DNA of 64,000 bases from Cryobacterium arcticum (GTDB taxonomy: Bacteria > Actinomycetota > Actinomycetes > Actinomycetales > Microbacteriaceae), in NCBI RefSeq assembly GCF_001679725.1, contig NZ_CP016282.1, positions 3,844,001 to 3,908,000 of the forward strand, in the 5' to 3' direction. A program made the position numbers and the translations under genes. Positions 15,858-32,415 of the stretch are shown here, piece by piece (the stretch's first letter is position 1; each line of letters opens with the position of its first letter). Below the pieces are notes generated by a model. It was not told the DNA's origin, searched no databases, and saw only the letters and a program-made list of their open reading frames with translations.

Positions 15858-15919
15858 GGCGCATTTCACCGGGGTGGCCTCGAGGCACCTGCGTGATTAC
15901 GCATGGGTGGCGCAATACG
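15858..15919. promoter_or_regulatory. Cluster of candidate operator elements between monooxygenase and deacetylase genes
   Basis: Three related elements are visible: GGCGCATTTC (15858-15867; GAAATGCGCC on the other strand), the palindromic GCGTGATTACGC (15891-15902) and GGCGCAATACG (15909-15919). Similar words occur upstream of the other monooxygenase units and of the GntR gene, so a shared regulator is inferred. Confidence 0.5.
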
Positions 15920-15971
15920 GGGGCAACACACCTTCGATCCGTCGAAACAGGGGCCGCCTAACGTGTCGGTC

Positions 15972-16610
15972 ATGACAGACACCGGCGCGCCCCGCCCACA
16001 CACCACCAACCTGTACTCCTTCGATCCGGCCGCCCGCACGGTGGCGTGGACCATCGACGACGGCACCAACGCCGAGTCGATCCGCCGGCTGGCGCTGTTC
16101 GCCGCGGCGACGGGGGTGCGCATGACCCTGTTCCCCTGCGGCAGCTACCCGGGCTGGGCGGAGCACGCGGCACTGTGGCGGCCGCTCGTGGCCTCGGGCC
16201 AGGTGCAGGTGGGCAACCACACCTGGTCGCACCGGGAGCTCACCACCCTCACCGACGAGGAGATCATCGAGGAACTCACGCTGAACGAGGAGTTCTTCCT
16301 CGAGCACTACGGCGTCAGTACCAAGCCTTACTTCCGGCCGCCGAACGGCTCCCGCGACGAGCGCACGGATGCCGTGGCCGAGCGGGCCGGCTACTCGGTG
16401 CAGGCCATGTGGAGCGGCCTGCTCACCGAGGGGCCCGACCGCACGGCGGAGGAGCTCATCGAGTCGGCCGGCCGGGAGTTCCGGGCCGGCGCCATCGTGA
16501 TCGGGCACGTGAACTTCGACGCCGTGCAGGATGCCCTGCCCGCGCTGATGGATGCCATCACGACGGCGGGCCTCACCCCGGTGACCCTGCGCGACGTCTT
16601 CGCCGCCTGA
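15972..16610 (+). CDS. NodB-type polysaccharide deacetylase family hydrolase
   Basis: 212 residues from the ATG at 15972; a GTG nine bases earlier is an alternative. The NodB core is present: TIDDGTNAE (~26, the Asp-Asp metal/catalytic pair), NHTWSHRE (~78, HxxxH metal ligands), FRPPNGSRDE (~122) and IVIGHVNFD near 178. There is no signal peptide, so it acts in the cytosol. This argues against wall deacetylation and for an amidase or deacylase role on a small molecule, like PuuE-type or imidase members (inference). Its promoter region is shared with monooxygenase copy 1. Confidence 0.82.
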   Translation: MTDTGAPRPHTTNLYSFDPAARTVAWTIDDGTNAESIRRLALFAAATGVRMTLFPCGSYPGWAEHAALWRPLVASGQVQVGNHTWSHRELTTLTDEEIIEELTLNEEFFLEHYGVSTKPYFRPPNGSRDERTDAVAERAGYSVQAMWSGLLTEGPDRTAEELIESAGREFRAGAIVIGHVNFDAVQDALPALMDAITTAGLTPVTLRDVFAA

Positions 16611-16651
16611 CCAGCGCGCGACGCACCCCCTCCGCCGGTCGAGCCCTTTCG

Positions 16652-17400
16652 CTGGTCGAGCCCGTCGAGACCCGGCGAGACGACCCACGGATGCCGCGGC
16701 AGCGACACACACGCCCCTCACGGGGTCTCGACAAGCTCGACCAACGAGACGGGGACGACCGCAGACCACGTCACGAGGTCTCGACCGACAAGACCGGCAC
16801 AACCACACCGCTGGTCGAGCCTGTCGAGACCCGGCGAGACGACCTACGGATGCCGCAGCAGCGACACACACGCCCCTCACGGGGTCTCGACAAGCTCGAC
16901 CAACGAGACGGGGACGACCGCAGACCACGTCACGAGGTCTCGACCGACAAGACCGGCACAACCACACCGCTGGTCGAGCCTGTCGAGACCCGGCGAGACG
17001 ACCTACGGATGCCGCAGCAGCGACACACACGCACCTCACGGGGTCTCGACAAGCTCGACCGACGAGACGGGAACGACCGCAGACCACGTCACGAGGTCTC
17101 GACCGACAAGACCGGCGCAACCACACCGCTGGTCGAGCCCGTCGAGACCCCGCGAGACGACCTACGGATGCCGCGGCAGCGACACACACGCACCTCACGA
17201 GGTCTCGACAAGCTCGACCGACGAGACGGGAACGACCGCAGACCACGTCACGAGGTCTCGACCGACAAGACCGGCACAACCACACCGCTGGTCGAGCCTG
17301 TCGAGAACCGGCGAGACGACCTACGGATGCCGCGGCAGCGACACACACGCCCACACACACGTCACGGGGTCTCGACGAGCTCGACCGACGAGATGGGAAC
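16652..17400. repeat. 159-bp tandem repeat array built from palindromic elements
   Basis: The word CTGGTCGAGCC(T/C)GTCGAGA recurs at 16652, 16811, 16970, 17129 and 17288, an exact 159-base period, with the last unit incomplete. Each unit carries one CTGGTCGAGC element, a TACGGATGCCGC segment, ACACACACGC, a GGTCTCGACAAGCTCGACC element and a GGTCTCGACCGACAAGACC segment. Copies differ by scattered point changes. Because 159 is a multiple of three, long spurious frames run through both strands. It fills the gap between convergent genes. Confidence 0.93.
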
Positions 17401-17453
17401 GAACGCAGACCGGGTCACGAACCAGCCAGGTGGGACATGTCGGACTTTCCGGG

Positions 17454-18737
17454 TCAGTAGGCGGTGAGGTTGCCGCGCAGGGTGTCGGCCGAGTACTCGG
17501 AGCGGATCAGGCCGCGGCGGCGCAGCTCCGGGGCCAGGTCGCCGGCGATGTCGGCGACGGCGCGCGGGGTGACCGGGCTGTTCACGAGGAACCCGTCGCC
17601 GCCCACCTCGGCCATCACGGCCTCCATCTGGTCGGCGGCGGTGGCGGGAGACCCCACGATCTCCAGCGACGGGATGATGGTGCTCGCGATCTCCCGCAGG
17701 GTCTGGTGCTCCCGGCCGGCGAACATCTGCGCTGTGGTGGTCTTCGCCGCGTTCGTGGAGACCGGCGGCACCGGCGCATCCAGGTCGAAGGTGGAGAAGT
17801 CGATGCCGCTGGCGAACGACATGTAGGCCAGCCGGCCCTCGATGTCGGCGACCATGGCCGCGTGCCGGCGGCGCTGCAGCTCCAGCGCATCCTCGTGGGT
17901 GTCGCCGATGATGAAGTCGGTGAGGAAGAGCACCTTGACGGCATCCGGGTCACGACCGGCGTCGACGAGGCCCGCACGGATGTCGGTGCGGTACTGCTTC
18001 ATCCACTCGATCGAGCCGCTCGGAGCCACGATGGTGTCGGCGAACCGGGACGCGAAGACCCGGCCCACCGGCGAGCCGCCGGCCTGGCAGATCACCGGGA
18101 TCCGCTGCGGACCCGGCGGCACGTTGAGCGGGCCACGGCTGGAGAAGTAGCTGCCCTCGTAGTCGGTCTGGTGGATCTTGGTGTGGTCGGCGTAAATTCC
18201 CGCCGCCACATCGTCGACCACGGCGTCCTCGTCCCACGAGGTGAGCAACGCCGTCACGGCCTGGGCCCAGTCGGTGGCGATGGCGTAGCGCTCGGAGTGG
18301 TCCCAGTGCTTGTCCATGCCGTAGTTCTGCGCGGTGCGGTCGTTGTGCGCCGTCACCAGGTTGAAGCCCACCCGGCCGCCGGAGAGGTGGTCGAGGGTGG
18401 TCATCAGCCGGGCGGCGAGGAACGGCGGGTAGAACGACGTCGTCATCGTGGCGATGAGGCCGATCTTCTCGGTGGAGGCCGCCAGCAGCGGCACCAGCGC
18501 CATCGGGTCGTGCTTGGGCGAGGCGAACCCGGTGCGCAGCGAGTGCTCCATCGACGAGCCGTAGGCATCCGGGATGAAGGAGCCGTCTTCGATCATCAGG
18601 TAGTCGAAGCCGGCCCGCTCGAGCGCCCGGGCGAAGTCGACGTACACATCGGTGTTGGGGAACAACCCGCCGCGGTCGGAGTGCGGCGCATGCCAGGCCT
18701 GCGTGGAGAAGCTGAGGAACCAGCCGAGATGGAACAT
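17454..18737 (-). CDS. NtaA/SnaA/DszA-family FMN-dependent monooxygenase (copy 2 of 5)
   Basis: 427 residues starting MFHLGWFLSFSTQAW. Family blocks are YLMIEDGSFIPDAYG (~45), FYPPFLAARLMTTLDHLSGG (~100), GFNLVTAHNDRTAQNYG (~125), SSRGPLNVPPGPQRIPVICQ (~198-218) and GGDGFLVNSP near 388. The start lies 12 bases after the stop of copy 3, so the two are an operon transcribed leftwards from the promoter region near 20.1 kb. A two-subunit or two-step pathway is possible. It ends next to the 159-bp repeat array. Confidence 0.88.
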   Translation of the reverse strand: MFHLGWFLSFSTQAWHAPHSDRGGLFPNTDVYVDFARALERAGFDYLMIEDGSFIPDAYGSSMEHSLRTGFASPKHDPMALVPLLAASTEKIGLIATMTTSFYPPFLAARLMTTLDHLSGGRVGFNLVTAHNDRTAQNYGMDKHWDHSERYAIATDWAQAVTALLTSWDEDAVVDDVAAGIYADHTKIHQTDYEGSYFSSRGPLNVPPGPQRIPVICQAGGSPVGRVFASRFADTIVAPSGSIEWMKQYRTDIRAGLVDAGRDPDAVKVLFLTDFIIGDTHEDALELQRRRHAAMVADIEGRLAYMSFASGIDFSTFDLDAPVPPVSTNAAKTTTAQMFAGREHQTLREIASTIIPSLEIVGSPATAADQMEAVMAEVGGDGFLVNSPVTPRAVADIAGDLAPELRRRGLIRSEYSADTLRGNLTAY

Positions 18738-18749
18738 GGCGGCGCCCTC

Positions 18750-20042
18750 CTAGTAGGCGAGAAGGTTGTCGCGGAAGGTGGAGTGCTCGTATGACGGGCG
18801 GATCAGGCCCCGCTTACGCAGCGCCGGCGCGAGGCCGTCGGCGATCTCGGTGATGTTCTGCCGGGTGACCGGCTTGGCGATCAGGAACCCGTCGCCTCCG
18901 GCGTACTCCATGTACTCACCCATCTCCTCGGCAATCGACTCCGGCGTGCCGATCAGCGGCACCGATTCCTGCGTGCGGTGGTTGGTCACGGCCTCACGGA
19001 TGGTGGCGCCCGAGCGGGCGAAATCGTTCATGGTGCTCTGGTGGCCCTCGTTCTTCGACAGGTCCGGGAACGGCGCGTCGTAGTCGTACTTGGACCAGTC
19101 GGTGCTGGTGAAGTAGGAGAAGCCGGCCACCTGCGCGTCGATGTTGGCTGCGGATGCCTTGAGCATCGCGGCGTTCTTCTCCTCGGCCTCTGCCTTGGAG
19201 TCGGCCAGCACCGGGCTGATCAGGAACAGCACCTTGACGTCTTTGGGGTCGCGGCCCAGCGCGATCATGCGCTCCGAGACGTCGTCGCGGTAGGCCTTCA
19301 TCTCCTCGACGCCCTTGACGGCGGCGATGATGGTGTCGGCGTTGCGGGCACCGAACTCACGGCCCACATCCGACCCGCCGGCCTGGCAGATCACCGGGTG
19401 TCGCTGCGGACCCGGGATGGTGTTGAGCGGCCCGCGGGAGCGGTAGTACTTGCCCTCGAAGTCGACGGTGTGCACCTTGGTGTGGTCGGCGAAGACACCG
19501 TTGACCTCGTCCATCAGCACGGCGTCCTCGTCCCACGAGTCCCACAGCGCCTTCACGACGTCGACCCACTCGTTGGCACGGGCGTAGCGCTCGTCGTGCG
19601 GGATGAGGTCCTTCAGGCCGTAGTTCTGCATGGCCGACTTGTTGCTCGAGGTGACCAGGTTCATGCCCACGCGTCCGTTGGTGACGTGGTCGAGGGTGGA
19701 GAACAGCCGGGCCGCCATGAACGGGTGGTAGAACGACGTGGAGATCGTCGCGACGATACCGATGTGCTTGGTGGCGGCTGTGAGGAACGGGATCAGCGGC
19801 ACGGGGTCGAACCGGATGGTGCCGCCGTTCTTCACCGACGACTCGAAGGTGCCCCGGTGCACATTGGGCAGCACCGAGGAGTCCTCCAGCATCATGTAGC
19901 TGAAGCCGGCCCGCTCCAGCGACGTCGCCATGTCGACGAACAGCTGGGGGTTGCCGACGTCCTGGCTGACGTTGCCCGACCAACGCTGATTCCAGTTGTA
20001 GACGCCGAAGCCGGTGCCCATGAACCATCCCATGTGAAACAT
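18750..20042 (-). CDS. NtaA/SnaA/DszA-family FMN-dependent monooxygenase (copy 3 of 5)
   Basis: 430 residues from the ATG at 20042, chosen because MFHMGWFMGTGFGVYNWNQ aligns with the other copies; the longer frame upstream is unlikely. Blocks include YMMLEDSSVLPNVHRG (~48), FYHPFMAARLFSTLDHVTNG (~100), GMNLVTSSNKSAMQNYG, RSRGPLNTIPGPQRHPVICQ (~205) and GGDGFLIAKP near 390. Its N-terminal loop (YNWNQRWSGN) closely matches copy 4 (YGWNQQWSGN), suggesting a recent duplication between the two sub-loci. It is first in the operon with copy 2 and divergent from the GntR regulator. Confidence 0.88.
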   Translation of the reverse strand: MFHMGWFMGTGFGVYNWNQRWSGNVSQDVGNPQLFVDMATSLERAGFSYMMLEDSSVLPNVHRGTFESSVKNGGTIRFDPVPLIPFLTAATKHIGIVATISTSFYHPFMAARLFSTLDHVTNGRVGMNLVTSSNKSAMQNYGLKDLIPHDERYARANEWVDVVKALWDSWDEDAVLMDEVNGVFADHTKVHTVDFEGKYYRSRGPLNTIPGPQRHPVICQAGGSDVGREFGARNADTIIAAVKGVEEMKAYRDDVSERMIALGRDPKDVKVLFLISPVLADSKAEAEEKNAAMLKASAANIDAQVAGFSYFTSTDWSKYDYDAPFPDLSKNEGHQSTMNDFARSGATIREAVTNHRTQESVPLIGTPESIAEEMGEYMEYAGGDGFLIAKPVTRQNITEIADGLAPALRKRGLIRPSYEHSTFRDNLLAY

Positions 20043-20070
20043 GCCGTACCACTTTCTGCCTGAGGTGAGG

Positions 20071-20227
20071 GTGTTGCGCCGTGCGGTTATGCGCGATGTA
20101 GACCAGTAGAAGCGCGGCGTATTTCGCGCGATCGCTGACCGTGTTTCCCGCGCATTACGCTCCCGCGGCGGGTCTGGCCGCCCCACTATTACGAAGAATC
20201 GAGAGTCTGGTTTCGCGCTCGTTACGC
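20071..20227. promoter_or_regulatory. Cluster of four candidate operators between monooxygenase operon and gntR-type gene
   Basis: Elements seen: GTGTTGCGCC (20071-20080), GGCGTATTTCGCGCGATC (20116-20133), GTTTCCCGCGCATTACGC (20143-20160) and GTTTCGCGCTCGTTACGC (20210-20227). The last two are direct repeats 67 bases apart with 14 of 18 positions identical. Read on the other strand, the second (GATCGCGCGAAATACGCC) fits the same pattern. The position between the operon and the regulator suggests autoregulation plus control of the operon; binding is inferred. Confidence 0.55.
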
Positions 20228-20304: not shown

Positions 20305-21186
20305 ATGTCTTTCACCCACAACGAGCTTCGAGCGGTTGAATTCCAGCGGCAGCGACTCCTGTCCCAACCGACTCTGCACACCTCCTCCCGGCGCACCTAC
20401 GAGCAGCTGCGGGCGAGCATCCGGGCCGGCCTGACGCATCCGGACACCCAGTTTCGCGAGCTCACCATCTCGCAGGAGTTCGGCGCCAGCCGCAACTCGG
20501 TGCGCGTGGCGTTGGCCATGCTCGCCGCCGACGGCCTGATCACCCGGGGTCCGCGCCGGGGCACCATCCTCACCAAACAGATCATCGACTTCCCGGTGGA
20601 CCGGGTGCTGCCGCGCTCGTTCGATGTGAACCCGAGCACCGCCACGCACGGCATGATCGTGCTCGACCTCGAGTCGGCCGTGCTCACCACACCGCCGCTG
20701 ATCGCCGAGCTTCTGGACACCCGGGTGGAGCGCATCGTGAGCTACGAGCAGATGGCGATCTTCGACGGCGAGCCCGTCTACGTGCGCTCAGGGGTCTCCC
20801 CGCTGGTCTCCGACGCCGACGAGTATTTCGCCCGCATCGCCTCCTGCAACGCCGCCGTGGCCGCCATCACCGACACGGCTGCCGGCACGGATGCCGCCCC
20901 CGGCGCACCGGGCGGGGACCGGACCGCAGCCGGTATCGAGATGGAGGGGGTCTTCGAGCTCCTGTTCGAGGTGCCGTTCGGGCACTGCCGCAGCCGGGTG
21001 GAAGTGGTCGGCGCCGACGAGCACCTGGCCAAGCTGCTCGGTGTGGAGGAGGGCTCACCGCTGCTGCTGCGCCAACAGGTGAACTACGACATCCACAATG
21101 TGGCCCGCGAGTTCAGCTTCACCCACTACCGGGGCGACCGCGCCACCCTCACCAGCCGACGCGTCTACGAGCGGGGCGCCGCATGA
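20305..21186 (+). CDS. GntR-family transcriptional regulator with UTRA ligand domain
   Basis: 293 residues from the ATG at 20305, which has AGGTGG seven bases upstream; a GTG at 20296 is the alternative. A winged helix-turn-helix covers ~30-95 (RRTYEQLRASIRAG, LTISQEFGASRNSVRVALAMLAADGLITRGPRRGTIL). The UTRA domain occupies ~110-290 and ends with the characteristic GSPLLLRQQVNYD and EFSFTHYRGDR strands. A low-complexity Ala/Gly insert (~195-210) interrupts it. UTRA domains bind small effectors and modulate DNA binding. The gene lies between a monooxygenase operon and an ABC importer, so it likely senses the imported substrate or a product. Confidence 0.88.
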   Translation: MSFTHNELRAVEFQRQRLLSQPTLHTSSRRTYEQLRASIRAGLTHPDTQFRELTISQEFGASRNSVRVALAMLAADGLITRGPRRGTILTKQIIDFPVDRVLPRSFDVNPSTATHGMIVLDLESAVLTTPPLIAELLDTRVERIVSYEQMAIFDGEPVYVRSGVSPLVSDADEYFARIASCNAAVAAITDTAAGTDAAPGAPGGDRTAAGIEMEGVFELLFEVPFGHCRSRVEVVGADEHLAKLLGVEEGSPLLLRQQVNYDIHNVAREFSFTHYRGDRATLTSRRVYERGAA

Positions 21187-21821
21187 GCGCCGCGCTGGGC
21201 TGGGACGCCGGGACGGGCGACGGCATGCCGAAACAGCCGCAGCTGATCGCGCAGAACGCCCAGACCATGTTGGAGGGCTGGCGGGACGCGGCACCCCTGA
21301 TGGTGCCGGGCAACACCGTGCACCGCATCGCCCTCGACCAGCATCCGGAGCGGCGCGGCGGCAGCATCGACCAGCCCGACGCCGAGATCGTGCGGATGCG
21401 CCTGGTCGAGCACGCCCTCGTCGCCCCCTCTCCCCTCATCAAGGCGCTCATGCACACCGACGAATTCGCGGTGTCGATGCTCGAGCAGCTGGGCAGCATC
21501 GGCGACCAGCCGCTCTTCGTGCGGGTGAGCTACCACCTGGTGGGCGATTTCGAGGCGACCGCCCGACGCCTACGCACCCCGTCACAGGCCGGGGCGACGA
21601 TGACCACGGAGGAGTCGTTCCGGTTGCACTTCGGCGTCGACCTGCTCTCCAACGATGTGAGCGTCGAGGCCGTGCGGAGCGACCGGCGCACAGCAACGGC
21701 CATGCGGGTGAGCGTCGGGGCGCCCATGATCCTGCGCCAGATGCTGCTCACCGACGAGCACGGCTGGGTGCGGGAGCTCAGTTTCACGCACTTCCGCGCC
21801 GACCGCGTGACGCTGGAGTGA
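21183..21821 (+). CDS. UTRA-domain-only protein lacking the GntR DNA-binding domain
   Basis: 212 residues, starting at an ATGA overlap with the upstream regulator stop, so the two are translationally coupled. The C-terminal part parallels the UTRA domain of the neighbour: VEAVRSDRRTATAMRVSVGAPMILRQ followed by VRELSFTHFRADRVTLE. The N-terminal part (PQLIAQNAQTMLEGWRDAAPLMVPGN) matches the start of the effector domain. No helix-turn-helix precedes it. It probably arose by duplication of the effector domain. A plausible role is to heterodimerise with, or titrate effector from, the full-length regulator (inference). Confidence 0.75.
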   Translation: MSAALGWDAGTGDGMPKQPQLIAQNAQTMLEGWRDAAPLMVPGNTVHRIALDQHPERRGGSIDQPDAEIVRMRLVEHALVAPSPLIKALMHTDEFAVSMLEQLGSIGDQPLFVRVSYHLVGDFEATARRLRTPSQAGATMTTEESFRLHFGVDLLSNDVSVEAVRSDRRTATAMRVSVGAPMILRQMLLTDEHGWVRELSFTHFRADRVTLE

Positions 21822-21847: not shown

Positions 21848-22044
21848 GGGGCAGCGAAATCAAGAGGAAACGTTTAAGTCGGTCACCGGTAACACCCCCC
21901 ACTCACACTAAGAGCAGGCAGCCGCTCGAACCACCCACTCGAGTTCACCAGGAAGCGCCCCAAGGGCCCCTTCCACTTACACTCTCCTTCCCTCAGCGGG
22001 CACGCACAGCAGGCGTGACCGCATCTACCGCATCGGAGTACGCA

Positions 22045-23682
22045 GTGTCCTCTTTCCGTAAACGCCTCCTCTCGGCCACCGCCGTGGCGCTGTCGGTTGG
22101 CCTCCTGGCCACCGGCTGCAGCAACCTCGCCCCCTCCACCGAAGGGGCGTCAGGCGGCACCGTCGTGGTCGTCGTCCCCGAGCTCTCCACCCAGCTCTCC
22201 TTCGACACCAGCTACGCCATCACCGCCTCGTACTTCGACACCTCACTCGCGCTGAACGCCACCCTGATCCGCAAGCCCTACATCGACAGCGAGCAGGCCG
22301 GCACAACCGAACAGGACCTGTACAACTTCGAGGGTGTGCTCGCCAAGGACTACACGGTGAGCGAGGACGGCCTCACCTACACGTTCAACCTGCGCGAGGG
22401 CATCATGAGCGAGATGGGCAACGAGCTCACCTCCGAGGACGTCGTCTGGTCGTACCAGCGCAAGTTCGGCGCCCCCACCAGCATCGTTCCCTACGTCACC
22501 GCGCCGGCGATCGTCTCCGCCGACCAATTCGTCGCCACCGACAAGTACACCGTCACGGTCACCGTGGAGAAGCCCGCCTACGGCTTCACGCTGCTCTCGA
22601 CCATGGCCGACATCACCGGCGACATCTACGACTCCACCTACCTCAAGGAGAACGCGACCGACGAGGACCCGTGGGCCACCGAGTTCACCTCGGGCCGCTA
22701 CGACTTCGGTTTCGGCGCCTACACGGTCGAGAGCGTCGACCCGGGCTCCGAGATGGTGCTCGTGGCCAACGAGAACTACGCGCTCGGAACCCCGGAGATC
22801 ACCAAGATCATCCAGCGGGTCGTGCCGGACGCCGGCAACCGCGCGCAAGCGCTCAAGAACGGCGACGCGGATGTGGCGCTGGGCCTGTTGGCCGCCGACC
22901 TGAACTCCCTCGAGACGGATGACGCGGTCCTCGTACCGTCCAAGCCCCGCAACGGCTACCTGGTGTTCTCGCTGAACACCAAGCTCGCCCCGTTCGACGA
23001 CCTGGCCGTGCGCAAGGCCTTCACCAGCGCCATCGACTACGACCAGATCATGAGCGAGGTCTATCAGGGCCGCGCCGTGAAGAAGAACACCATGCTCTCC
23101 ACGGATGCGCCCGGCTACGACGGCGAGGGACTCCCCGACTGGGAGTACGACCCCGAGGCCAGCAAAGCAGCGCTCGAGGCGGCCGGGTACACCGACACTG
23201 TCCCGGTGACCATCAGCGTCAGCAACGAGAACCAGTCCATCTCCGACCTCGCCGTGTCGATCAAGAGCTCCGCCCTGGCGGCCGGCTTCGACGTGACAGT
23301 GGAGGCCCTGCCGGCCACGCAGATGCAGGAGAAGGCGGCCGGCGGACAGGTGCAGGCCACCATCGGCAACGGTGAGGCCATCTCGCTCACCCCGTCGTAC
23401 CAGCTGCAGCTGCTCACCACCCCGGGCTCCTCGTCCAACTACGCCCAGTGGGACAGCCCCACCTTCCAGGCCCTCGTCGCCGCCGGTGACGCCGTCGCCG
23501 ACCCGCTCTCTGACGAGGGCGGCAAGGCCTGGAACGCCGCCGAGAAGTACTGGCTCACCGAGGAGGTGCCGCACATCTTCCTCGGCCAGACCGGCTCCGA
23601 CTCCGCGGTGGCCTCGACCCTCACGGGCTGGACCTGGCGGACCGACCACGCGGTCGACCTGTCGGTCATGACCAAGGACTGA
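22045..23682 (+). CDS. ABC importer solute-binding lipoprotein, family 5 (peptide/nickel type)
   Basis: 545 residues from the GTG at 22045, with CGGAG six bases upstream; an upstream in-frame GTG at 22015 is less likely because it would bury the signal. A lipoprotein signal ends at the lipobox LLATGC, with Cys25 as the lipidated residue. SBP_bac_5 features follow: VLAKDYTVSEDGLTYTFNLR (~100), an LTSEDVVWSYQR helix, FNLREGI, NGYLVFSLNT and the lobe-closing VRKAFTSAIDYDQI (~330). Family 5 proteins bind peptides, nickel chelates, opines and other large ligands. It heads the importer operon. A short GC hairpin (23684-23697) after it may give it higher expression. Confidence 0.9.
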   Translation: MSSFRKRLLSATAVALSVGLLATGCSNLAPSTEGASGGTVVVVVPELSTQLSFDTSYAITASYFDTSLALNATLIRKPYIDSEQAGTTEQDLYNFEGVLAKDYTVSEDGLTYTFNLREGIMSEMGNELTSEDVVWSYQRKFGAPTSIVPYVTAPAIVSADQFVATDKYTVTVTVEKPAYGFTLLSTMADITGDIYDSTYLKENATDEDPWATEFTSGRYDFGFGAYTVESVDPGSEMVLVANENYALGTPEITKIIQRVVPDAGNRAQALKNGDADVALGLLAADLNSLETDDAVLVPSKPRNGYLVFSLNTKLAPFDDLAVRKAFTSAIDYDQIMSEVYQGRAVKKNTMLSTDAPGYDGEGLPDWEYDPEASKAALEAAGYTDTVPVTISVSNENQSISDLAVSIKSSALAAGFDVTVEALPATQMQEKAAGGQVQATIGNGEAISLTPSYQLQLLTTPGSSSNYAQWDSPTFQALVAAGDAVADPLSDEGGKAWNAAEKYWLTEEVPHIFLGQTGSDSAVASTLTGWTWRTDHAVDLSVMTKD

Positions 23683-24605: not shown

Positions 24606-25420
24606 ACACCGCCGAATTCGTGCTTGAGAACGTCGTCAAGAGGTTCGGGTCCAAGCACGGCCATGTGGCCGTCGACCGGGTCTCCACGCGCTTCTCCAAC
24701 ACCCAGGCCGTCGGCATCATCGGCGAGTCCGGGTCGGGCAAGTCCACCCTGGGCCGCATGCTCTGCGGGCTGGAGAACCCCACCTCCGGGTCCATCCGGT
24801 TCAACGGCGAAGAACTCGCCGACATCCGCCGGTCCCGCCCCCGGCTCGAGGAGTTCCGCCGCGAGGTGCAGCTGATCGGGCAGGACACCACCTCGTCGTT
24901 CGACCCGCGGCACTCGCTGCGGGAGTCGATCATGTACCCGGCGATGAACCTCGGCGGTCTGAACCGCCGCGACGCCTACGAGAAGACCGACGAGGTGCTG
25001 CTGCAGCTGGGCCTCGCGCCGGCCATGGCCGACCGGGCCGCCGGCAGCGTCTCCGGCGGACAACGCCAGCGCTTCGCGATCGCCAGGGCCCTCATCGTCG
25101 AGCCGCGCATCCTCGTCTGCGACGAGGTCGTCTCCGCGCTGGACGTGTCGGTGCAGGGCGGCATCTTGAACTTTCTGAAGACCTTCAGCCGCACCCGCGC
25201 GGCCGGAATCATCTTCATCTCGCACGGCCTGCCCGCCACCGCGTTCATCTCGCAGGAGCTCATGGTCATGTACCAGGGCGGGATCGTGGAGAACGGCCCC
25301 ACCCGCGAGGTCGTCACCAACCCGGCGCACGACTACACCAAGAAGCTTCTCGCCGGTTATCACAACACCGGCGACGCGGATGCGCACCAGTACCCCGAAA
25401 AGGAGACCCACGTTGCCTGA
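24602..25420 (+). CDS. Dpp/Opp-type ABC importer ATP-binding subunit (F position)
   Basis: 272 residues from the ATG at 24602, overlapping the upstream stop by four bases. Walker A is GESGSGKST (~42), LIGQDTTSSFDPRHSL (~93) is the Q-loop segment, the signature is SVSGGQRQRFAIARAL (~150), Walker B is ILVCDEVVSALDVS (~172) and the H-loop is FISHGLPATAFI. The Walker B tail, VVSALD, replaces the usual PTSALD but keeps the catalytic Asp-Glu. The H-loop has Gly after His rather than Asp. It forms the ATPase heterodimer with the preceding subunit. Confidence 0.9.
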   Translation: MNTAEFVLENVVKRFGSKHGHVAVDRVSTRFSNTQAVGIIGESGSGKSTLGRMLCGLENPTSGSIRFNGEELADIRRSRPRLEEFRREVQLIGQDTTSSFDPRHSLRESIMYPAMNLGGLNRRDAYEKTDEVLLQLGLAPAMADRAAGSVSGGQRQRFAIARALIVEPRILVCDEVVSALDVSVQGGILNFLKTFSRTRAAGIIFISHGLPATAFISQELMVMYQGGIVENGPTREVVTNPAHDYTKKLLAGYHNTGDADAHQYPEKETHVA

Positions 25421-26453
25421 ATTCCTGGCTCGCCAGCGTTGGTGGTTCACCCGCCTGCTGATGCTTCCCGTGCACCTCCTGGTCTTCACGATCATCACCT
25501 TCCTGCTGCTGCGGATGGTGCCCGGCGACCCCGTGATCGGGGTGCTCGGCGCCAACTACACCGACGAGGCCTACCTGGCCATGCAGAAGAGCCTCGGCCT
25601 GGACGGCACCGTCTGGCAGCAGCTCGGCAACTACGTGGCCAACCTCGCCCAGCTCAACCTCGGTCAGTCCATCTCCACCGGCGAACCCGTCATCGTCAGC
25701 CTGATGGACCGGCTGCCCGGCACCCTCGAACTGGCCGTGCAGGGGCTCCTGCTCACGATCATCGTGAGCGTGCTGCTCTCGCACCTGGCCGTGTTCCACC
25801 CCCGCAACATCCTCGCCAAGGCCGTTCTGGTCTACTCGCGGGCCGCCGGTGCCCTGCCCGAATTCGTGCTCGCGATCGTGGCGCTGTTCGTGTTCTACGC
25901 TGTACTGCACTGGGCGCCCGCGCCGCTGGGCCGACTCGACACCGGGCTGCCGCAACAGACCCGGATCACCGGTTTCCCGTTCCTGGACACCATCATCCAG
26001 GGCTACTGGGTGGGCACCTTCTCGATGGCCCAGCACCTCGTTCTGCCGCTGATCGTCATGGTGATCGCGCAGTCGGCCGTCGTGATCAAGCTCCTGGTCT
26101 CCGGGCTGCAGGGCGCCATCAGCGATCCGGCCACGTCGTTCCGCATCACGACCGGCAGCGGCCGTACCGCGACGACCCTGAGCATCTACCGCCGGGCCGC
26201 GCCCGCCGTGGTGACGCTGGTCGGGCAGATGTTCGGTTACCTCGTCGGCGGCACCATCGTGATCGAGTCCCTCTTTGGCTTCGCCGGGGTTGGGTCGCTC
26301 GCGGTGAAGGCCGTCATCACCACGGACTACCCCGCGATCCAGGGCTTCCTGCTCGTGATCGCCGCCATCACCCTGATCGTGTACATGCTCGTCGACCTCA
26401 CCGTCATGATCATCGACCCCCGGCGCCGTCCGGGTGCAGTTGGGAGCAACTGA
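25413..26453 (+). CDS. Dpp/Opp-type ABC importer permease (B position)
   Basis: 346 residues if translation starts at the TTG at 25413, which has AAGGAG seven bases upstream; the ATG at 25380 is the alternative but would overlap the ATPase gene by 41 bases. The first membrane helix (LLMLPVHLLVFTIITFLLLRMVPGDP) carries the family's MVPGDP motif. About six helices follow. The cytoplasmic EAA-like loop is TTGSGRTATTLSIYRRAAP near 250, and GTIVIESLFGFAGVGSLAVKAV is the conserved penultimate block. It forms the translocation channel with the next gene product. Confidence 0.88.
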   Translation: MPEFLARQRWWFTRLLMLPVHLLVFTIITFLLLRMVPGDPVIGVLGANYTDEAYLAMQKSLGLDGTVWQQLGNYVANLAQLNLGQSISTGEPVIVSLMDRLPGTLELAVQGLLLTIIVSVLLSHLAVFHPRNILAKAVLVYSRAAGALPEFVLAIVALFVFYAVLHWAPAPLGRLDTGLPQQTRITGFPFLDTIIQGYWVGTFSMAQHLVLPLIVMVIAQSAVVIKLLVSGLQGAISDPATSFRITTGSGRTATTLSIYRRAAPAVVTLVGQMFGYLVGGTIVIESLFGFAGVGSLAVKAVITTDYPAIQGFLLVIAAITLIVYMLVDLTVMIIDPRRRPGAVGSN

Positions 26454-27364
26454 TGACCGCACTGGCCCCCCGCACCGCACCGCGCTCGGTGGCGGATATC
26501 CGCGCCGAACGCCGCCGCTACGCCGCGAAGCTGCCCCGCCGCAAGGTGCGCATCTCGCTGCTGCTGCCAGCGCTGATCATCGTGGCCATCGCGATCTTCG
26601 TCCCGCCGCTCACGGCGTTCGACCCGATCCAGACCAGCGGTCCGGCGTCCACTGCGCCCAACGGCACCCACTGGTTCGGCACCGACAGCGCCAGCCTCGA
26701 CATCTTCGCCCGCACGGTGGCGGCCGCCCGCTACAACCTGTCGATCGCGTTCGCGGCCACCGTGCTGTGCACCGCGATCGGCGTGGTGTTCGGTGTCGTC
26801 ATCGGCAGCCTGGAGTCCGAGCGGAGCGTCGGCGGCCTGGCCGCCCGCGGCACCACCCGGCTGTTCGACCTGCTGCAGGCGATTCCGGGCATCCTGATCG
26901 GCTTGGTGATCGTCACCTTCTTCGGCGCCTCGATCACCTCCCTGGCCGTGGGAACCGCCATCATCCTCGCCCCGGTGCAGATGCGGCTCGTGCGCATCGA
27001 GGTGCTGCGGGTGCGCAAGGAGGCCTACCTCGACGCGGCCCGCATGAGCGGTCAGACCGAGCTGCAGCTGATGCTGCGGCACGTGATGCCCAACTCGGTC
27101 TGGGTGGCGCTGGAGAACATGTCGTTCCTCTTCGCCGCGAGCATGCTGCTCACCGCGGCGCTCGGCTTCGTGGGAGTGGGCCTGCAGCCGCCCACCCCGG
27201 AGTGGGGTTCGATGCTCTCCTCCGCCACGAACGACGCGCTCTCCGGACGCTGGTGGCCGGCCGCCTTCCCGGCCGCGGCCCTGATGATCACGGTGTGGGC
27301 CTTCGCCAACGCCTCCCACGCCCTCTTCGGCCGTCCCGAGGGCGCCTCCGCCGGGGGTCACTGA
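26453..27364 (+). CDS. Dpp/Opp-type ABC importer permease (C position)
   Basis: 303 residues. The start overlaps the upstream stop by one base (TGATG). An N-terminal cytoplasmic basic stretch precedes helix 1 (ISLLLPALIIVAIAIFV). The periplasmic segment GTHWFGTDSASLDIFARTVAAAR (~67) is the hallmark of DppC/OppC proteins. The EAA loop is EVLRVRKEAYLDAARMSGQ (~190), and ALGFVGVGLQPPTPEWGSML (~240) is the conserved C-terminal block. It completes the importer (binding protein, two ATPases, two permeases). The operon ends at a palindrome array. Confidence 0.9.
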   Translation: MTALAPRTAPRSVADIRAERRRYAAKLPRRKVRISLLLPALIIVAIAIFVPPLTAFDPIQTSGPASTAPNGTHWFGTDSASLDIFARTVAAARYNLSIAFAATVLCTAIGVVFGVVIGSLESERSVGGLAARGTTRLFDLLQAIPGILIGLVIVTFFGASITSLAVGTAIILAPVQMRLVRIEVLRVRKEAYLDAARMSGQTELQLMLRHVMPNSVWVALENMSFLFAASMLLTAALGFVGVGLQPPTPEWGSMLSSATNDALSGRWWPAAFPAAALMITVWAFANASHALFGRPEGASAGGH

Positions 27365-27387
27365 CCCCGTCCCGCGCACCCAACACG

Positions 27388-28010
27388 CTGGTTTGAGCCT
27401 GTCGAAACCAGGCGACCAACCCGAAAAACGCACCCGCACGCTGGTTGAGCCTGTCGAAACCAGCCGACGGAACCGGACGACCTGCGCGGCCTGGGCGACC
27501 TACGAGGTTTCGACAAGCTCGACCACCGAGATGGTGCGACCACGAGACGGCCCGCAAGACGCACCCCACACGCTGGTTGAGCCTGTCGAAACCAGGCGAC
27601 GGAACCGGACGACCTGCGCGGCCTGGGCGACTTACGAGGTCTCGACAAGCTCGACCACCGAGATGGTGCGACCACGAGACGGCCCGCGGAACGCACCCCA
27701 CACGCTGGTTGAGCTTGTCGAAACCAGGCGACGGAACCGGACGACCTGCGCGGCCTGGGCGACTTACGAGGTCTCGACAAGCTCGACCACCGAGATGGTG
27801 CGACCACGAGACGGCCCGCGGAACGCACCCCACACGCTGGTTTGAGCCTGTCGAAACCAGGCGACGGAACCGGACGACCTGCGCGGCCTGGGCGACTTAC
27901 GAGGTCTCGACAAGCTCGACCACCGAGATGGTGCGACCACGAGACGGCCCGCAAAACGCACCCCACACGCTGGTTGAGCCTGTCGAAACCAGGCGACGAA
28001 CCCGCCCAAC
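27388..28010. repeat. 132-bp tandem repeat array built from palindromic elements
   Basis: CTGGTTGAGC(C/T)TGTCGAAAC recurs at 27441, 27573, 27705, 27837 and 27970, giving a 132-base period (133 once, where a T is inserted near 27841). Another partial copy lies near 27388. Each unit pairs this element with a GGT(C/T)TCGACAAGCTCGACC element about 65 bases later and a GAGATGGTGCGACCACGAGA segment. The repeat lies between the convergent permease and esterase genes. A length of 44 codons keeps spurious frames open. Confidence 0.93.
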
Positions 28011-28026: not shown

Positions 28027-29613
28027 TCAGCCGGCGAAGGCCAGGGCCGCGCCGGCGTAGGTGGCGGCAACGGTGGTGACCTCGGTGGGGCCGGCCGGGG
28101 CCGCGTCGTAACGGATCACCGGCTGGCCCTCGACGGGCTCGCCCGCCGTCCAGGCCGGCCAGGTGGGGTCTCCCCCGGCGATGAAGTCCACCGCATTGCC
28201 GTGCACCTCGTCGGCCAGGCGCTGCGACGGCGCCGGGCCGGCCAGCACCTCAACCCGTGGGGCGTCGAGCGCGTCGAAGAAGAACGGCAGGTCGAGGCAG
28301 TGCAACGCCCCGCCGAACGTGGGCGATCGCCAGGCGAACGCCCACAGCCAAGTAGGTGCGGCATCCGCTGCCCGGCCCACGGCGACGCCGACCGAGGCCG
28401 CAACGCCCAGCGTGACGGATGCGGCGGCGGCCCGGTCGGCCGCGACCGCGGTGCGGGCCTCGGCGACCTGCAGCATCACGCCGCGGATGGCGCGGTCCGA
28501 GGCGAACTGGCCGAGGATGTCGGCGGTGCCGCGCCCGTCATGGGCCGCGGCGTAGGCGCGCGCGGCGGGACCGGCGACGCCGAGCCGCACGAGCATCTCG
28601 GCGGCATCCTCGCCCGCGAGCTCGTCGGTGAGGTCGTTCATGGCGAAGTTGAACTCGTGGTCGGTGCTGCCGAGCATCAACGGCTTGTCAGCGCCGATGC
28701 CGGCCCGCACCGCGGCACCGGTGGCCAGCGGCACGAGGTCCCCGTCGATCACCGGGCCGAACGGCAGCCCGCCGACAAGGGTGTTAGCGATCTCGCCGAG
28801 CGGCCCGGCCGGGCCATCCGCCGGCAGGGCCGTGGCCCGCGGCTGCTCCGCCAGGATCTGCTGCTCGGTGAGCGCGCCGAGGCCGGCCCGGGTGGGCGCC
28901 ACACCGGCGAGCTCGGCCACGCGCCGGCCGATCTGCTCGGCCTGGTCGGGCGTGAGGTGGGTAGCCACGCCGGAGATGACGATGGCCCGCGCGAAGAGTG
29001 GTTGCGCGCGCGGCGAGCCGAGCAGGGTGAGCACGGCCCCGCCGCCGGCGGACTGACCGGCGATGGTGACCCGGGCCGGGTCACCGCCGAAGAAACGGAT
29101 GTTGCGCTGCACCCACTCGAGCGCCAGCAGCCAGTCGAGCACGCCCCGGTTCAGCGGCGCATCCTCGATCCAGCCGAAGCCGTCGAAGCCGAGCCGGTAC
29201 GACACGTTCACCGTGACCACACCGTGCCGGTTGAAGCCGGCGCCGTCGTACCAGGGACTCGCGGCCGACCCGGAGGTGTAGCCGCCGCCGTGGATGTAGA
29301 CCAGCACCGGCAGGCCCGCCCCCTCAGCAGAGGTGGTCGGATCGGGCGTGAAGACGCTCACGTTCAGGGTGGACTCGCCGGGAAAGCTGGGCTCGGGCAC
29401 GAGGGTGGTGTCGCCACCGTCGATGCGCTGCGGGGTGGCACCGGGGCTGCCGGCATCCAGCACGCCCGGCCACGGCGGATGCGGCACGGGAGCCGCGAAG
29501 CGCAGCTCGCCCACCGGCGCGGCCGCGTACGGGATACCGAGGAAGGCCGCGGAGCCGAATCTCTGACGGCCGCGGACGACCCCGGCTGTGGTGCTGACGT
29601 CGACGGTATCCAT
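28027..29613 (-). CDS. Type B carboxylesterase/lipase family protein
   Basis: 528 residues of alpha/beta-hydrolase fold. The N-terminus has the family block FLGIPYAAAPVGELRF (~24). The oxyanion-hole motif is YIHGGGYTSGSA (~107), the nucleophile elbow is TIAGQSAGGGA (~188, Ser in GQSAG), and the C-terminal His region is FGGALHCLDLPFFFD near 438. The catalytic acid is likely in the STDHEFNF segment (~320). It has no signal peptide, so it acts in the cytosol on esters. Its place between the importer and monooxygenase copies 4 and 5 suggests it may process the same substrate class, though this is unproven. Confidence 0.87.
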   Translation of the reverse strand: MDTVDVSTTAGVVRGRQRFGSAAFLGIPYAAAPVGELRFAAPVPHPPWPGVLDAGSPGATPQRIDGGDTTLVPEPSFPGESTLNVSVFTPDPTTSAEGAGLPVLVYIHGGGYTSGSAASPWYDGAGFNRHGVVTVNVSYRLGFDGFGWIEDAPLNRGVLDWLLALEWVQRNIRFFGGDPARVTIAGQSAGGGAVLTLLGSPRAQPLFARAIVISGVATHLTPDQAEQIGRRVAELAGVAPTRAGLGALTEQQILAEQPRATALPADGPAGPLGEIANTLVGGLPFGPVIDGDLVPLATGAAVRAGIGADKPLMLGSTDHEFNFAMNDLTDELAGEDAAEMLVRLGVAGPAARAYAAAHDGRGTADILGQFASDRAIRGVMLQVAEARTAVAADRAAAASVTLGVAASVGVAVGRAADAAPTWLWAFAWRSPTFGGALHCLDLPFFFDALDAPRVEVLAGPAPSQRLADEVHGNAVDFIAGGDPTWPAWTAGEPVEGQPVIRYDAAPAGPTEVTTVAATYAGAALAFAG

Positions 29614-29733: not shown

Positions 29734-31035
29734 TCAGAACGCGAACAGGTTGTCGCGGAAGGTGCCCGGCAGGTACTCCTCGCGGATCAGGCCGCGGCGC
29801 CGGAGCGCCGGGGCCAGGCCGTCGCAGACCTCGGTGATGTTCTTGCGGGTCACCGGCAACGCCACCAGGAACCCGTCGCCGCCGGCCTCCTGCATGGCCT
29901 CGTCCATCTGGCCGGCCACGGTGTCGGGCGAGCCGACCAACTGCACCGAGGAGGTACCGCGACGCTGGGAGGCGAGAGCTTCGCGCAGGGTCTTACCCGC
30001 GGACGCGGCAAGGAAGTCGTCGACGACGCTCTGGTGGCCGTTGTGCTTGCCGGTGAGGTCGGGGATCTCCTCGTTGAGGGCGAACTTCGACCAGTCCAGG
30101 CCGGAGATGTAGGACATCCGCATCAGCGACGCCTCGATGTTGCCCTGGTTCGCGGCGTCCATCCGGCGCTTTTTCTCGATCGCGTCGGCGTCGGTGTCGG
30201 CGAGCACCGGCTCCACGAGGAACAGCACCTTGACGTCTTTCGGGTCGCGGCCGAAGCCGATCATCCGGCGGGAGATGTCGTCGCGGTAGCGCTTCATGCC
30301 GTCGGCACCGGCCACCGAGGCGAGGATCGTGTCGGCGTGCTTGGCGCCGAAGTCCATGCCCGCCGGCGACCCGCCGGCCTGGCAGATGATCGGGTGCCCC
30401 TGCGGCGACGGCACCGTGTTGAGCGGCCCGCGGGTCTTGTAGAACTCGCCGTCGAAGTCGGCGCGGTGCACCTTGGTGTGGTCGGCGAACATGCCGCTCT
30501 CCTCGTCGAGGGTGAGCGCGCCGGGCTCCCAGGTGTCCCAGAGCGCCGTGACCGCCTGCACCCACTCGTCGGCCATGCGGTAGCGCAGGTCGTGCTCGTA
30601 GTGCTTGGCCAGCCCGTAGTTCTGCGCGGCCGCATCCGGGCTGGCGGTCACCAGGTTCACGCCCACCCGGCCGTGGCTGAGATGGTCGAGGGTGGTGAGC
30701 AGCCGGGCGGCGAGGAACGGCGGGTAGAAGGTGGTGGCAGCGGTGGCCACGAGCCCGAGGTGCTGGGTGGCCGCGGCGAGCAGCGGGATGAGCGGCATCG
30801 GGTCCATCCGCACGATGCCGGCCCGCAGCGACTCCTCCATGGTGCCGCGGAAGGTGTCCGGGATGACCGAGGAGTCCTCCAGCATCATGTAGTCGAAGCC
30901 CGCGCGCTCCAGCGACGTGGCCAGGTCGACGAACAGCTGCGGGTTGGCGAGGTCCGCCGCCGCATTGCCCGACCACTGCTGATTCCAGCCGTACGACCCG
31001 AATCCGAAACCGAGGAACCAGCCCATGTGAAACAT
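29734..31035 (-). CDS. NtaA/SnaA/DszA-family FMN-dependent monooxygenase (copy 4 of 5)
   Basis: 433 residues starting MFHMGWFLGFGFGSYGWNQ. Blocks are YMMLEDSSVIPDTFRG (~50), FYPPFLAARLLTTLDHLSHG, GVNLVTASPDAAAQNYG, KTRGPLNTVPSPQGHPIICQ (~205) and GGDGFLVALPVTRKNITEV near 392. Copy 3 shares its N-terminal loop and its C-terminal PVTRxNITE stretch, so these two are closest. The start codon directly follows the stop of copy 5 (TGA-ATG), making a tight two-gene operon transcribed leftwards, a mirror of the copy 3-copy 2 pair. Confidence 0.88.
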   Translation of the reverse strand: MFHMGWFLGFGFGSYGWNQQWSGNAAADLANPQLFVDLATSLERAGFDYMMLEDSSVIPDTFRGTMEESLRAGIVRMDPMPLIPLLAAATQHLGLVATAATTFYPPFLAARLLTTLDHLSHGRVGVNLVTASPDAAAQNYGLAKHYEHDLRYRMADEWVQAVTALWDTWEPGALTLDEESGMFADHTKVHRADFDGEFYKTRGPLNTVPSPQGHPIICQAGGSPAGMDFGAKHADTILASVAGADGMKRYRDDISRRMIGFGRDPKDVKVLFLVEPVLADTDADAIEKKRRMDAANQGNIEASLMRMSYISGLDWSKFALNEEIPDLTGKHNGHQSVVDDFLAASAGKTLREALASQRRGTSSVQLVGSPDTVAGQMDEAMQEAGGDGFLVALPVTRKNITEVCDGLAPALRRRGLIREEYLPGTFRDNLFAF

Positions 31036-32322
31036 TCAGAACTCCCTGAGGTTGTCGCGGAGCGTGGCCCCGGTGTATTCGCTGCGGATCAGCCCACGGC
31101 GGCGCAGCACGGGCGCCAGGCCGTCAGTGACCTCGCTGATATAACGGCGGGACAGCTGCCCGGCGATGAGGAAGCCGTCGCCGCCGACCTCGTCCATTGC
31201 CTCCTCCATCGCGTCGGCCACCTCCTCGACGGTGCCGCTCACTTCGAGCGACCCGAGCCGCACCGGGCGCTCGGCGATCTGGCGCAACGTGGTGGTGGGG
31301 TCGGAGCCCTGCAGCATGCCGAGCGTGGTGGAGGACGCCGCATCCGTCTTGATGGTCGGCAGCGGCGCGTCCAGGTCGAACTGGGAGAAGTCGATGCCGC
31401 TGGTCCAGGACAGCCGGGCCAGGGCGTCCTCGACCGTGGTGGCGTCGATGCGCTTCTTCTTGGCCACGGCCTCGTCGTGGGTCTCGCCGAAGACCGGGGA
31501 GATCGTGAACAGGATCTTGAGGTCCTTCGGGTCCCGGCCGAACCGCACCAGCCGCTCGGTCATGTCGGCGCGGTACTCCTTCATCGCGGCGATGCCGGGT
31601 ACGGATGCGACGACGGTGTCGGCGTGCCTCGCCGCGAGGTCCCGGCCGGCCGGGGAGCCACCCGCCTGGCAGACCACCGGGCTGCCCTGCGGGGAGGGGA
31701 TGGTGTTCAGCGGCCCGCGGGACTTGTAGAAGCGGCCCTCGAAGTTCACCGGGTGCACCTTGGTGTGGTCGGCGTAGATCCCGGCCTCGTGGTCGGCGAC
31801 GACGGCGTCGGGCTCCCAGGACGCCCAGAGCTGCTTGACCAGGTCGATCCACTCATCGGCCATCTCGTAACGCAGGTCGTGCTCGAAGTGCACGTCCCGG
31901 CCGAAGTTCTGCGCGGTGCGCACGTTGTGGGCGGTGACCAGGTTGATGCCGGCGCGGCCGTGCGAGAGGTGGTCGAGGCTGGCCATCAGCCGCGCCGCGG
32001 CGAACGGCGGGTAGTAGGGCGTGGCGATGGTCATGATCACGCCCAGGTGCCGGGTGGCCTGCATGATCAACGGCACCAGAATGGCCGGGTCGTGTTTGGG
32101 CGCGTGGTTGGCCTTGGCGAGGTAGTACTCGGCGGTGCCCTGGTAGGCGTCGGGGATGAACGCGCCGTCCTCGAGCATCATGTAGTCGAACCGGGCACGC
32201 TCCATGGCGCGGGCGAGTTCGATGTACAGGTCGGGGCTCGTCCAGTCCCTGGCCGCCTCGCCCGACCAGTCCTTGCCCCAGCCCGGAAGCGTGTAGTTGA
32301 GAAACCAGCCCATGTGGAACAT
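31036..32322 (-). CDS. NtaA/SnaA/DszA-family FMN-dependent monooxygenase (copy 5 of 5)
   Basis: 428 residues from the ATG at 32322, preceded by AGGGC; a GTG at 32358 would add 12 residues not seen in the other copies. The sequence starts MFHMGWFLNYTLPGW. Blocks are YMMLEDGAFIPDAYQG (~48), YYPPFAAARLMASLDHLSHG, GINLVTAHNVRTAQNFG, KSRGPLNTIPSPQGSPVVCQ and GGDGFLIAGQLSRRYISEV near 385. The EDGxFIPDAY block and TAHNxRTAQN match copy 2, so the second sub-locus again pairs one copy-3-like with one copy-2-like enzyme. Gene order within the pair is inverted relative to the first sub-locus. Confidence 0.88.
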   Translation of the reverse strand: MFHMGWFLNYTLPGWGKDWSGEAARDWTSPDLYIELARAMERARFDYMMLEDGAFIPDAYQGTAEYYLAKANHAPKHDPAILVPLIMQATRHLGVIMTIATPYYPPFAAARLMASLDHLSHGRAGINLVTAHNVRTAQNFGRDVHFEHDLRYEMADEWIDLVKQLWASWEPDAVVADHEAGIYADHTKVHPVNFEGRFYKSRGPLNTIPSPQGSPVVCQAGGSPAGRDLAARHADTVVASVPGIAAMKEYRADMTERLVRFGRDPKDLKILFTISPVFGETHDEAVAKKKRIDATTVEDALARLSWTSGIDFSQFDLDAPLPTIKTDAASSTTLGMLQGSDPTTTLRQIAERPVRLGSLEVSGTVEEVADAMEEAMDEVGGDGFLIAGQLSRRYISEVTDGLAPVLRRRGLIRSEYTGATLRDNLREF

Positions 32323-32366
32323 TCGCCCGCCCTGCCCTTCTTCGATGACTTCTCCCACTCAAGTGG

Positions 32367-32415
32367 CGGCGCATTTCCCGAAAGGTGACCGGAGGTTACC
32401 GCTGTATTGCGCCGC
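32367..32415. promoter_or_regulatory. Candidate operator pair upstream of monooxygenase copies 5 and 4
   Basis: GGCGCATTTC (32368-32377) is identical to the element at 15858-15867, and GTATTGCGCC (32404-32413) is the exact reverse complement of GGCGCAATAC at 15909-15918. They lie 45-92 bases upstream of the copy 5 start. The shared pair supports coordinated control; binding is inferred. Confidence 0.5.

Follow-up and report, generated by a model that had tools for sequence, protein, structure and literature searches.

The window analysed here is a 64,000-nucleotide stretch of the Cryobacterium arcticum genome (positions 3844001–3908000 of contig NZ_CP016282.1; genome size, 4.35 Mb). It carries a cluster with genes for five NtaA/DmoA-family flavin mononucleotide (FMN) monooxygenases, LLM1–LLM5, a peptide-type importer, and a GntR/UTRA regulator accompanied by a UTRA-only protein. 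Ten short operator-like words in the intergenic gaps of this cluster had been assigned to the GntR/UTRA protein in a sequence-only reading. The present analysis indicates that these words are probably pieces of four-box candidate operators with an 11-bp period for GlnR, the OmpR-type global nitrogen regulator, and suggests that the cluster scavenges nitrogen. GlnR is encoded in this genome: its product matches the profile PF21695 (GlnR_1st) with 144.8 bits. In the PDB it matches 8hih at E 3.3e-76 and, with its N-terminal part, 4o1h ("Transcription regulator GlnR") at E 1.3e-24.

Four-Box Elements of the Cluster

Read along the strand of the LLM genes, the unit consists of four 5-nt boxes repeated every 11 bp over 44 bp, and the paired words are the two ends of such an array. 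The sites are listed below, where n6 denotes a 6-nt spacer and relatives are designated by genome labels (G002 is the closest).

Site A, 15859–15902, minus strand, before LLM1: GTAAT-n6-GGTGC-n6-GCCAC-n6-GAAAT, then GCGC; kept in G002 and G010.
Site A2, 15912–15927, plus strand, a two-box site facing the deacetylase gene: GCAAT-n6-GCAAC; kept in G002 and G010.
Site B1, 20117–20160, minus strand, before LLM3-LLM2: GTAAT-n6-GAAAC-n6-AGCGA-n6-GAAAT; kept in G002, G022, G357, and G440.
Site B2, 20188–20225, minus strand: GTAAC-n6-GAAAC-n6-CTCGA-n6-GTAAT; kept in G002 only among the relatives compared.
Site C, 21856–21893, plus strand, before the importer: GAAAT-n6-GAAAC-n6-GTCGG-n6-GTAAC; kept in all five genomes compared.
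Site D, 32369–32412, minus strand, before LLM5-LLM4: GCAAT-n6-GTAAC-n6-TCACC-n6-GAAAT; kept in G002 and G010.

All ten words reported by the sequence-only reading are present at their positions. The word GGCGCATTTC is indeed the same at 15858 and 32368, GGCGCAATAC stands at 15909 and in reverse complement at 32404, and the words at 20143 and 20210 are related direct repeats, the minus strand of each reading GTAAY-n6-GAAAC. By our reading, eight of the ten fall on recognizable boxes: 15858 and 15891 on site A, 15909 on A2, 20116 and 20143 on B1, 20210 on B2, and 32368 and 32404 on D. The remaining two fail: the alignment shows the word at 20071 to be deleted in G002, and the importer word at 21834, though present in G002, is missing from G022. 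The conserved importer box, which had been overlooked, starts 22 bp past the latter word, at 21856. The proposed consensus SGCGCRWWTACGCC is not the real unit; most of the words are the ends of 44-bp four-box operators. Two other candidate units, a 13-bp palindrome GGCGYAWTRCGCC and asymmetric half-sites bound by a GntR:UTRA heterodimer with a single helix-turn-helix (HTH), were dropped once the interior boxes appeared.

Genome-wide counting, which had been proposed as a check on the words, gave a divided answer. The two 10-bp words GGCGCATTTC and GGCGCAATAC occur twice and three times, respectively, in the window, compared with once and not at all in 400 kb of the same genome. The degenerate form GGCGYAWWNC is found at 130 places genome-wide against 82 for its reversed control, and among the 100 of these places listed, GGCGCATTTC appears nine times and GGCGCAATAC three times elsewhere in the genome. 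Alone, the 10-bp words are therefore not rare in the genome, are not specific, and prove little. The paired form GCGYAWW-N30-WWTRCGC, on the other hand, is specific to the cluster: its only three places in the genome are 15859, 20117, and 32369, which precede LLM1, LLM3-LLM2, and LLM5-LLM4, respectively, in the same orientation. Outside the cluster, a third copy of GGCGCAATAC lies at 53989 of the window.

The 11-bp period was examined in 12 sites, namely the ten exact places, three of them in this genome, of the strict pattern GCGYAAT-N28-GAAATRCGC, and two exact sites of G022. The three orthologous sites in G002 and the two in G010 were not included, and two members of the sample, G440a and G230, may be mutual orthologs. 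A KNNAY box lies 11 bp past box 1 in 11 of the 12 sites and 22 bp past it in seven, while at 22 other offsets it is found in none or one of the 12 (base rate, 0.044). The patterns that picked these sites left the interior of the array free; the KNNAY expression was chosen after the sites had been seen, and the other offsets serve as its control.

Likeness to Nitrogen-Regulated Promoters

The published GlnR box reads gTnAc-n6-GaAAc-n6-GtnAC-n6-GAAAc in the passages of PMC10704036. The upstream regions of ammonium-transporter (amt) genes in the genus follow the scheme GTAAC-n6-GAAAC-n6-weak box-n6-GAAAC, and 20 of 23 loci score at least 13 of 18 against the published consensus. As an independent test, a matrix was trained on 18 amt sites, all of them from other genomes and none from this genome or the window; nine further amt rows from outside the genus were not used. 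The background was 400 kb of the own genome on both strands, i.e., 798,280 positions. A hand-weighted four-box scan had been unselective, with 177 background matches at threshold in 400 kb and top scores like those of the window, and trained matrices were used instead.

The five best matches of the amt matrix in the 64 kb are 20185 on the minus strand (23.6, site B2), 21853 on the plus strand (22.1, site C), 20118 on the minus strand (15.7, site B1), 27817 on the plus strand (14.9), and 32370 on the minus strand (10.2, site D). The scores of B2, C, B1, and D are equalled by 0, 0, 0, and 1 of the background positions, respectively, and no background position reaches 14.9. The spacing matters as well: when the matrix was respaced to 8–10 or 12–14 bp, the best score in four gaps was 7.0, compared with 23.6, 22.1, and 10.2 at 11 bp. 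The 11-bp-period GTnAC/GAAAC boxes with n6 spacers are recognizable in B1, B2, C, and D.

The same genome also offers positive controls. One own glnA promoter, which is outside the training set, has a site scoring 29.8 some 80 bp upstream of the predicted start, and both own amt genes carry the element, so that a GlnR-type box stands at both amt genes and at one of the two full glutamine-synthetase loci. The elements, their period, their likeness to the amt boxes of the genus and to the own glnA box, their conservation, and the GlnR gene itself are thus computed observations.

Chance, or the promoter composition of AT-richer intergenic DNA, is a barely credible source of the words. On its side stand the counts for GGCGYAWWNC alone (130 versus 82) and the searches in other genomes: the loose 44-bp pattern, i.e., the paired form above, has 52 places in 34 of the 149 genomes searched against 15 places in 15 genomes for the control, and the strict pattern 64 against 5. 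Nevertheless, all three genome occurrences of the paired form are in the cluster, and when the LLM3-GntR, UTRA-importer, and LLM5 gaps were simulated with a first-order model, 0 of 1000 sequences per gap reached the observed amt score. Moreover, the elements are conserved blocks in relatives, as described below.

Several observations weigh against the GlnR reading. The amt matrix gives site A only −4.2, a value reached by 146 of 1000 simulated sequences and hence at chance level, its second box is GGTGC, and the LLM1 gap gave no amt-matrix signal at any period tried. The LLM-type sites of relatives span −0.4 to 17.3 with this matrix, and several are low, including B in G440 (3.1) and G357 (−0.4), A in G002 and G010 (1.3), and the LLM4 site in G022 and G440 (5.2). 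The match at 27817, one of the five best, sits in a 132-bp tandem repeat. At the LLM genes the elements are flanked by GCG and RCGC, which is not so on the 3' side of amt sites, and their boxes 1 and 4 end in T, whereas C prevails there in amt boxes; these flanks and the T were imposed by the search pattern, and they are seen freely only in the window and its orthologs. In the matrix scan, no good box was found at the second full glutamine-synthetase locus (L191), nor a good site at a second GntR and LLM cluster of this genome (L070). Given these results, GlnR is the best candidate and not a proven binder. Of the same cluster type as L070, locus L071 of G010 has one weak site (amt matrix, 9.9).

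The membership of site A can be judged with a second matrix, of LLM type, trained on nine sites from other genomes. It gives 25.3 for A, 30.2 for B1, and 35.6 for D, against a background maximum of 6.3. Its own score and its conservation suggest that A belongs to the element family.

Another OmpR/PhoB-family regulator with a GlnR-like 11-bp repeat, such as MtrA or an orphan response regulator, might bind the LLM-type elements, with or without GlnR, although we regard this as unlikely. The genome has 20 Trans_reg_C matches, so that such a protein could be at hand, and the GCG and RCGC flanks would fit it, as would the low scores that the amt matrix gives to A and to several sites of relatives. 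In addition, the reference list of a GlnR review (PMC10704036) includes a paper whose title describes MtrA binding GlnR boxes. The background counts of 0, 0, 0, and 1 for B2, C, B1, and D speak for GlnR instead.

Conservation in Relatives and the GntR/UTRA Protein

The loci were aligned with G002 and G022, and then with G010, G357, and G440. The comparison of related genomes, which the sequence-only reading had called for, bears out its idea of a single element family: the elements form conserved blocks in otherwise drifting gaps, linking import and oxidation, and perhaps hydrolysis. Places of the loose search were studied in this genome, G002, G010, and G022. G002 has three copies of the paired form, at the corresponding places, and G022 has two, each before an LLM gene. 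At the importer, the block AGCGAAATC...GWAAC...GWAACA is kept in the own genome, G002, G022, G357, and G440, with amt scores of 9.8 to 22.1. The orthologous cluster of G002 (L061) has two extra monooxygenase copies between the deacetylase and LLM2.

The proposal that the words are operators of the GntR/UTRA protein encoded at 20305 now appears very improbable. In its favor, the gap upstream of the GntR gene holds B1 and B2, the halves of a pair can also be read as a 46-bp inverted repeat, and an element occupies the same gap in G002, G022, G357, and G440, all of which have GntR relatives. However, the elements repeat directly every 11 bp, as GlnR boxes do, and a GntR operator would explain neither the interior boxes at 11-bp steps nor the match to the amt and glnA promoters. 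Furthermore, LLM1 (97% identical) shares one contig of G010 with the deacetylase, LLM4, a shortened LLM5, and sites A, A2, and D, and in the 60 kb of G010 searched the GntR protein, its UTRA partner, the importer binding protein, and permease 1 had no match at E 1e-6. A GntR ortholog was not found in the whole G010 genome either (150 contigs, 96% complete; best match, E 4.6e-13). Since A, A2, and D are present there without GntR, the elements do not seem to depend on this gene. The LLM5 of G010 (L124:692-1801) aligns over 370 residues, against the 428 of the query, contains no stop, and seems to have lost an internal stretch.

The GntR/UTRA protein contains both a GntR HTH and a UTRA domain, whereas the protein at 21183 is UTRA only. 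The best PDB match of the GntR/UTRA protein is YvoA (E 7.5e-12). In seven of the 18 proteins found, query included, the two are fused into a GntR-UTRA-UTRA chain of 490–505 residues (P0003–P0009, Cryobacterium and Curtobacterium among them). The predicted structure of one fused chain of 490 residues has a mean pLDDT (predicted local distance difference test) of 72 and a pTM (predicted template modeling score) of 0.65, with both UTRA regions mostly at 80–90. No paper on GntR proteins that are fused or have two UTRA domains came up in a literature search. Near a GntR/UTRA paralog of this genome (L060:10690-10745, about 102.7 kb), the words GCGGATTGCGCC and GGGCGTATTGCGCC lie between an open reading frame (ORF) of a major facilitator superfamily (MFS)-like transporter and a divergent gene; the four-box score there is 11.1 in the simple scan, with no match to either trained matrix at the thresholds used.

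Related Sites in the Family

With up to one mismatch allowed, the strict pattern was searched in 398 genomes of the family. It occurs at 64 places in 47 genomes, compared with five for the reversed control; ten places are exact, and most of the one-mismatch matches may be chance. The surroundings were fetched for 15 of the 61 places outside this genome. In other genera, exact sites lie before LLM genes at one place in G230 and at three in G440; flavin reductases follow such sites in G357 and G395, and a relative of the importer permease does so in G201. One-mismatch sites in G357 adjoin LLM3, a riboflavin kinase, an MFS transporter, and an alpha/beta hydrolase, and those in G331 and G398 adjoin binding proteins of other kinds. 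At one place in G427, no gene was identified beside the site. The amt matrix in turn finds sites in two other clusters, one before an importer ATPase of G002:C10 (20.9) and one at the start of a permease match of G063 (16.6).

In the own genome, a pair of genes for an FMN reductase (PF03358) and a flavin reductase (PF01613) at L255:6973-8231 diverges from an alpha/beta hydrolase gene. The intervening site, near 8407, reads GAAAC-n6-GTAAT-n6-GACAC-n6-GCAAC and scores 11.5 against a background maximum of 10.5.

Genes of the Cluster

Profile matches confirm the gene content that had been read from the sequence, i.e., five NtaA/DmoA-type monooxygenases, a GntR/UTRA gene, and a peptide-type importer. 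All five monooxygenases pass the curated TIGR03860 cut-off of the NtaA/DmoA family. LLM1 stands alone, whereas LLM3-LLM2 and LLM5-LLM4 form pairs with gaps of 12 and 0 bp, respectively. The genes are as follows.

14533–15840, minus strand: LLM1, NtaA/DmoA-family FMN monooxygenase (TIGR03860, 444.8 bits, cut-off 279.7; PF00296).
15972–16610, plus strand: polysaccharide-deacetylase-family protein (PF01522, 81.9 bits, longer ORF).
17454–18737, minus strand: LLM2 monooxygenase (TIGR03860, 394.4 bits), 12 bp after LLM3.
18750–20042, minus strand: LLM3 monooxygenase (TIGR03860, 406 bits, longer ORF).
20305–21186, plus strand: GntR/UTRA (HutC-type) regulator (PF00392, 49.3 bits; PF07702, 48.2 bits).
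21183–21821, plus strand: UTRA-only protein without HTH (PF07702, 31 bits; no GntR domain), overlapping the GntR gene by 4 bp.
22045–23682, plus strand: importer solute-binding protein, family 5 (PF00496, 249.1 bits, longer ORF); GTG start picked among several.
23733–24605, plus strand: importer ATPase 1 (PF00005, 101.7 bits).
24602–25420, plus strand: importer ATPase 2 (PF00005, 105.4 bits, longer ORF).
25380–26453, plus strand: importer permease 1 (PF00528, 59.2 bits).
26434–27396, plus strand: ORF in the position of permease 2, placed by position and conservation in relatives only, with no Pfam match.
28027–29613, minus strand: carboxylesterase-family protein (PF00135, 255.9 bits).
29734–31035, minus strand: LLM4 monooxygenase (TIGR03860, 384.4 bits).
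31036–32322, minus strand: LLM5 monooxygenase (TIGR03860, 409.9 bits, longer ORF).

Two intergenic tandem-repeat arrays lie in the cluster, one at 16650–17420 (159 bp, 4.8 copies) and one at 27420–28002 (132 bp, 4.4 copies).

Comparison with Known Systems

The NtaA/DmoA family is better known from sulfur and pollutant metabolism. When LLM1, the only copy compared, was matched to solved structures of this family, E values ranged from 2.3e-87 to 1.9e-47. The nearest are dibenzothiophene desulfurization enzyme A (5tlc), dimethyl-sulfide monooxygenase (6ak1), YtnJ (1yw1), nitrilotriacetate monooxygenase (3sdo), riboflavin lyase (5w48), and EDTA (ethylenediaminetetraacetate) monooxygenase (5dqp). 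Unlike the known enzymes, five copies are present in one cluster, and no copy can be assigned to a substrate. The GntR/UTRA protein shares the HTH and UTRA domains with HutC-type repressors such as YvoA and DasR, but in contrast to these it is paired with an HTH-less UTRA protein.

The elements resemble the GlnR box of actinomycetes (Streptomyces, Mycobacterium) in having four 5-nt boxes with 6-nt spacers and GTnAC/GAAAC letters upstream of their targets, and they differ from it in the GCG and RCGC flanks and the T at the fifth box position of LLM-type sites. In the passages of PMC3662644, the consensus for M. smegmatis GlnR is Gn2AC-n6-GnAACA with the core AC/T-n9-AC; the box spacing is the same and T is allowed in the first box, although this consensus has two boxes and the present sites three to four. 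According to the passages of PMC3662644, PMC3087709, and PMC4617892, peptide uptake genes are among the GlnR or nitrogen-limitation targets of M. smegmatis, and the promoter of a peptide-binding protein is enriched with GlnR in S. venezuelae. The targets here, NtaA/DmoA-type monooxygenases and a family-5 importer, set the cluster apart from the known GlnR regulon. The word monooxygenase is absent from PMC3662644 and PMC3087709, and its single mention in PMC4617892 concerns an ornithine monooxygenase. A literature search for GlnR with nitrilotriacetate monooxygenase had no match, and searches linking GlnR to the LLM/flavin-reductase family gave none among the matches listed. For GlnR in Microbacteriaceae there was one paper, with a single mention of GlnR, and for GlnR in Cryobacterium one paper, whose title concerns gastric cancer.

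Proposed Nitrogen-Scavenging Pathway

Nitrogen limitation activates GlnR, as stated in the passages of PMC10704036 and PMC3662644. If the same holds here, GlnR would bind A, B1/B2, C, and D and thereby activate LLM1, LLM3-LLM2, the importer, and LLM5-LLM4, and possibly the deacetylase through A2. The importer would take up small nitrogenous organic compounds, which the FMNH2-dependent monooxygenases would oxidize with release of nitrogen; the FMNH2 would be supplied by flavin reductases encoded elsewhere, and the hydrolases would process the products. The GntR/UTRA protein and its HTH-less UTRA partner may add substrate-specific control. The binding and activation by GlnR, the role in nitrogen supply, and any substrate are what we infer.

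More speculatively, and with less confidence than for the cluster itself, Microbacteriaceae may share an undescribed nitrogen-starvation pathway. In such a pathway, GlnR-type operators of the LLM signature GCGYAAT-n6-GTNAY-n6-GSCAC-n6-GAAATRCGC would turn on an importer and sets of NtaA/DmoA-type monooxygenases, joined in some genomes by a flavin reductase and a riboflavin kinase that would feed FMNH2. Nitrogen would be cut oxidatively from small organic compounds, and a sensor with two UTRA domains and one HTH would add substrate control.

For reading such promoters in general, the cluster corrects a natural misinterpretation, in which a four-box element resembles the inverted-repeat operator of a neighboring regulator when only its outer ends are seen. 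If the GlnR reading is true, a recurrent cluster of uncharacterized flavin monooxygenases and an importer would gain a nitrogen-scavenging function class, the GlnR regulon would extend to the NtaA/DmoA family, and the promoter signature could be used to find the rest of the pathway in relatives.

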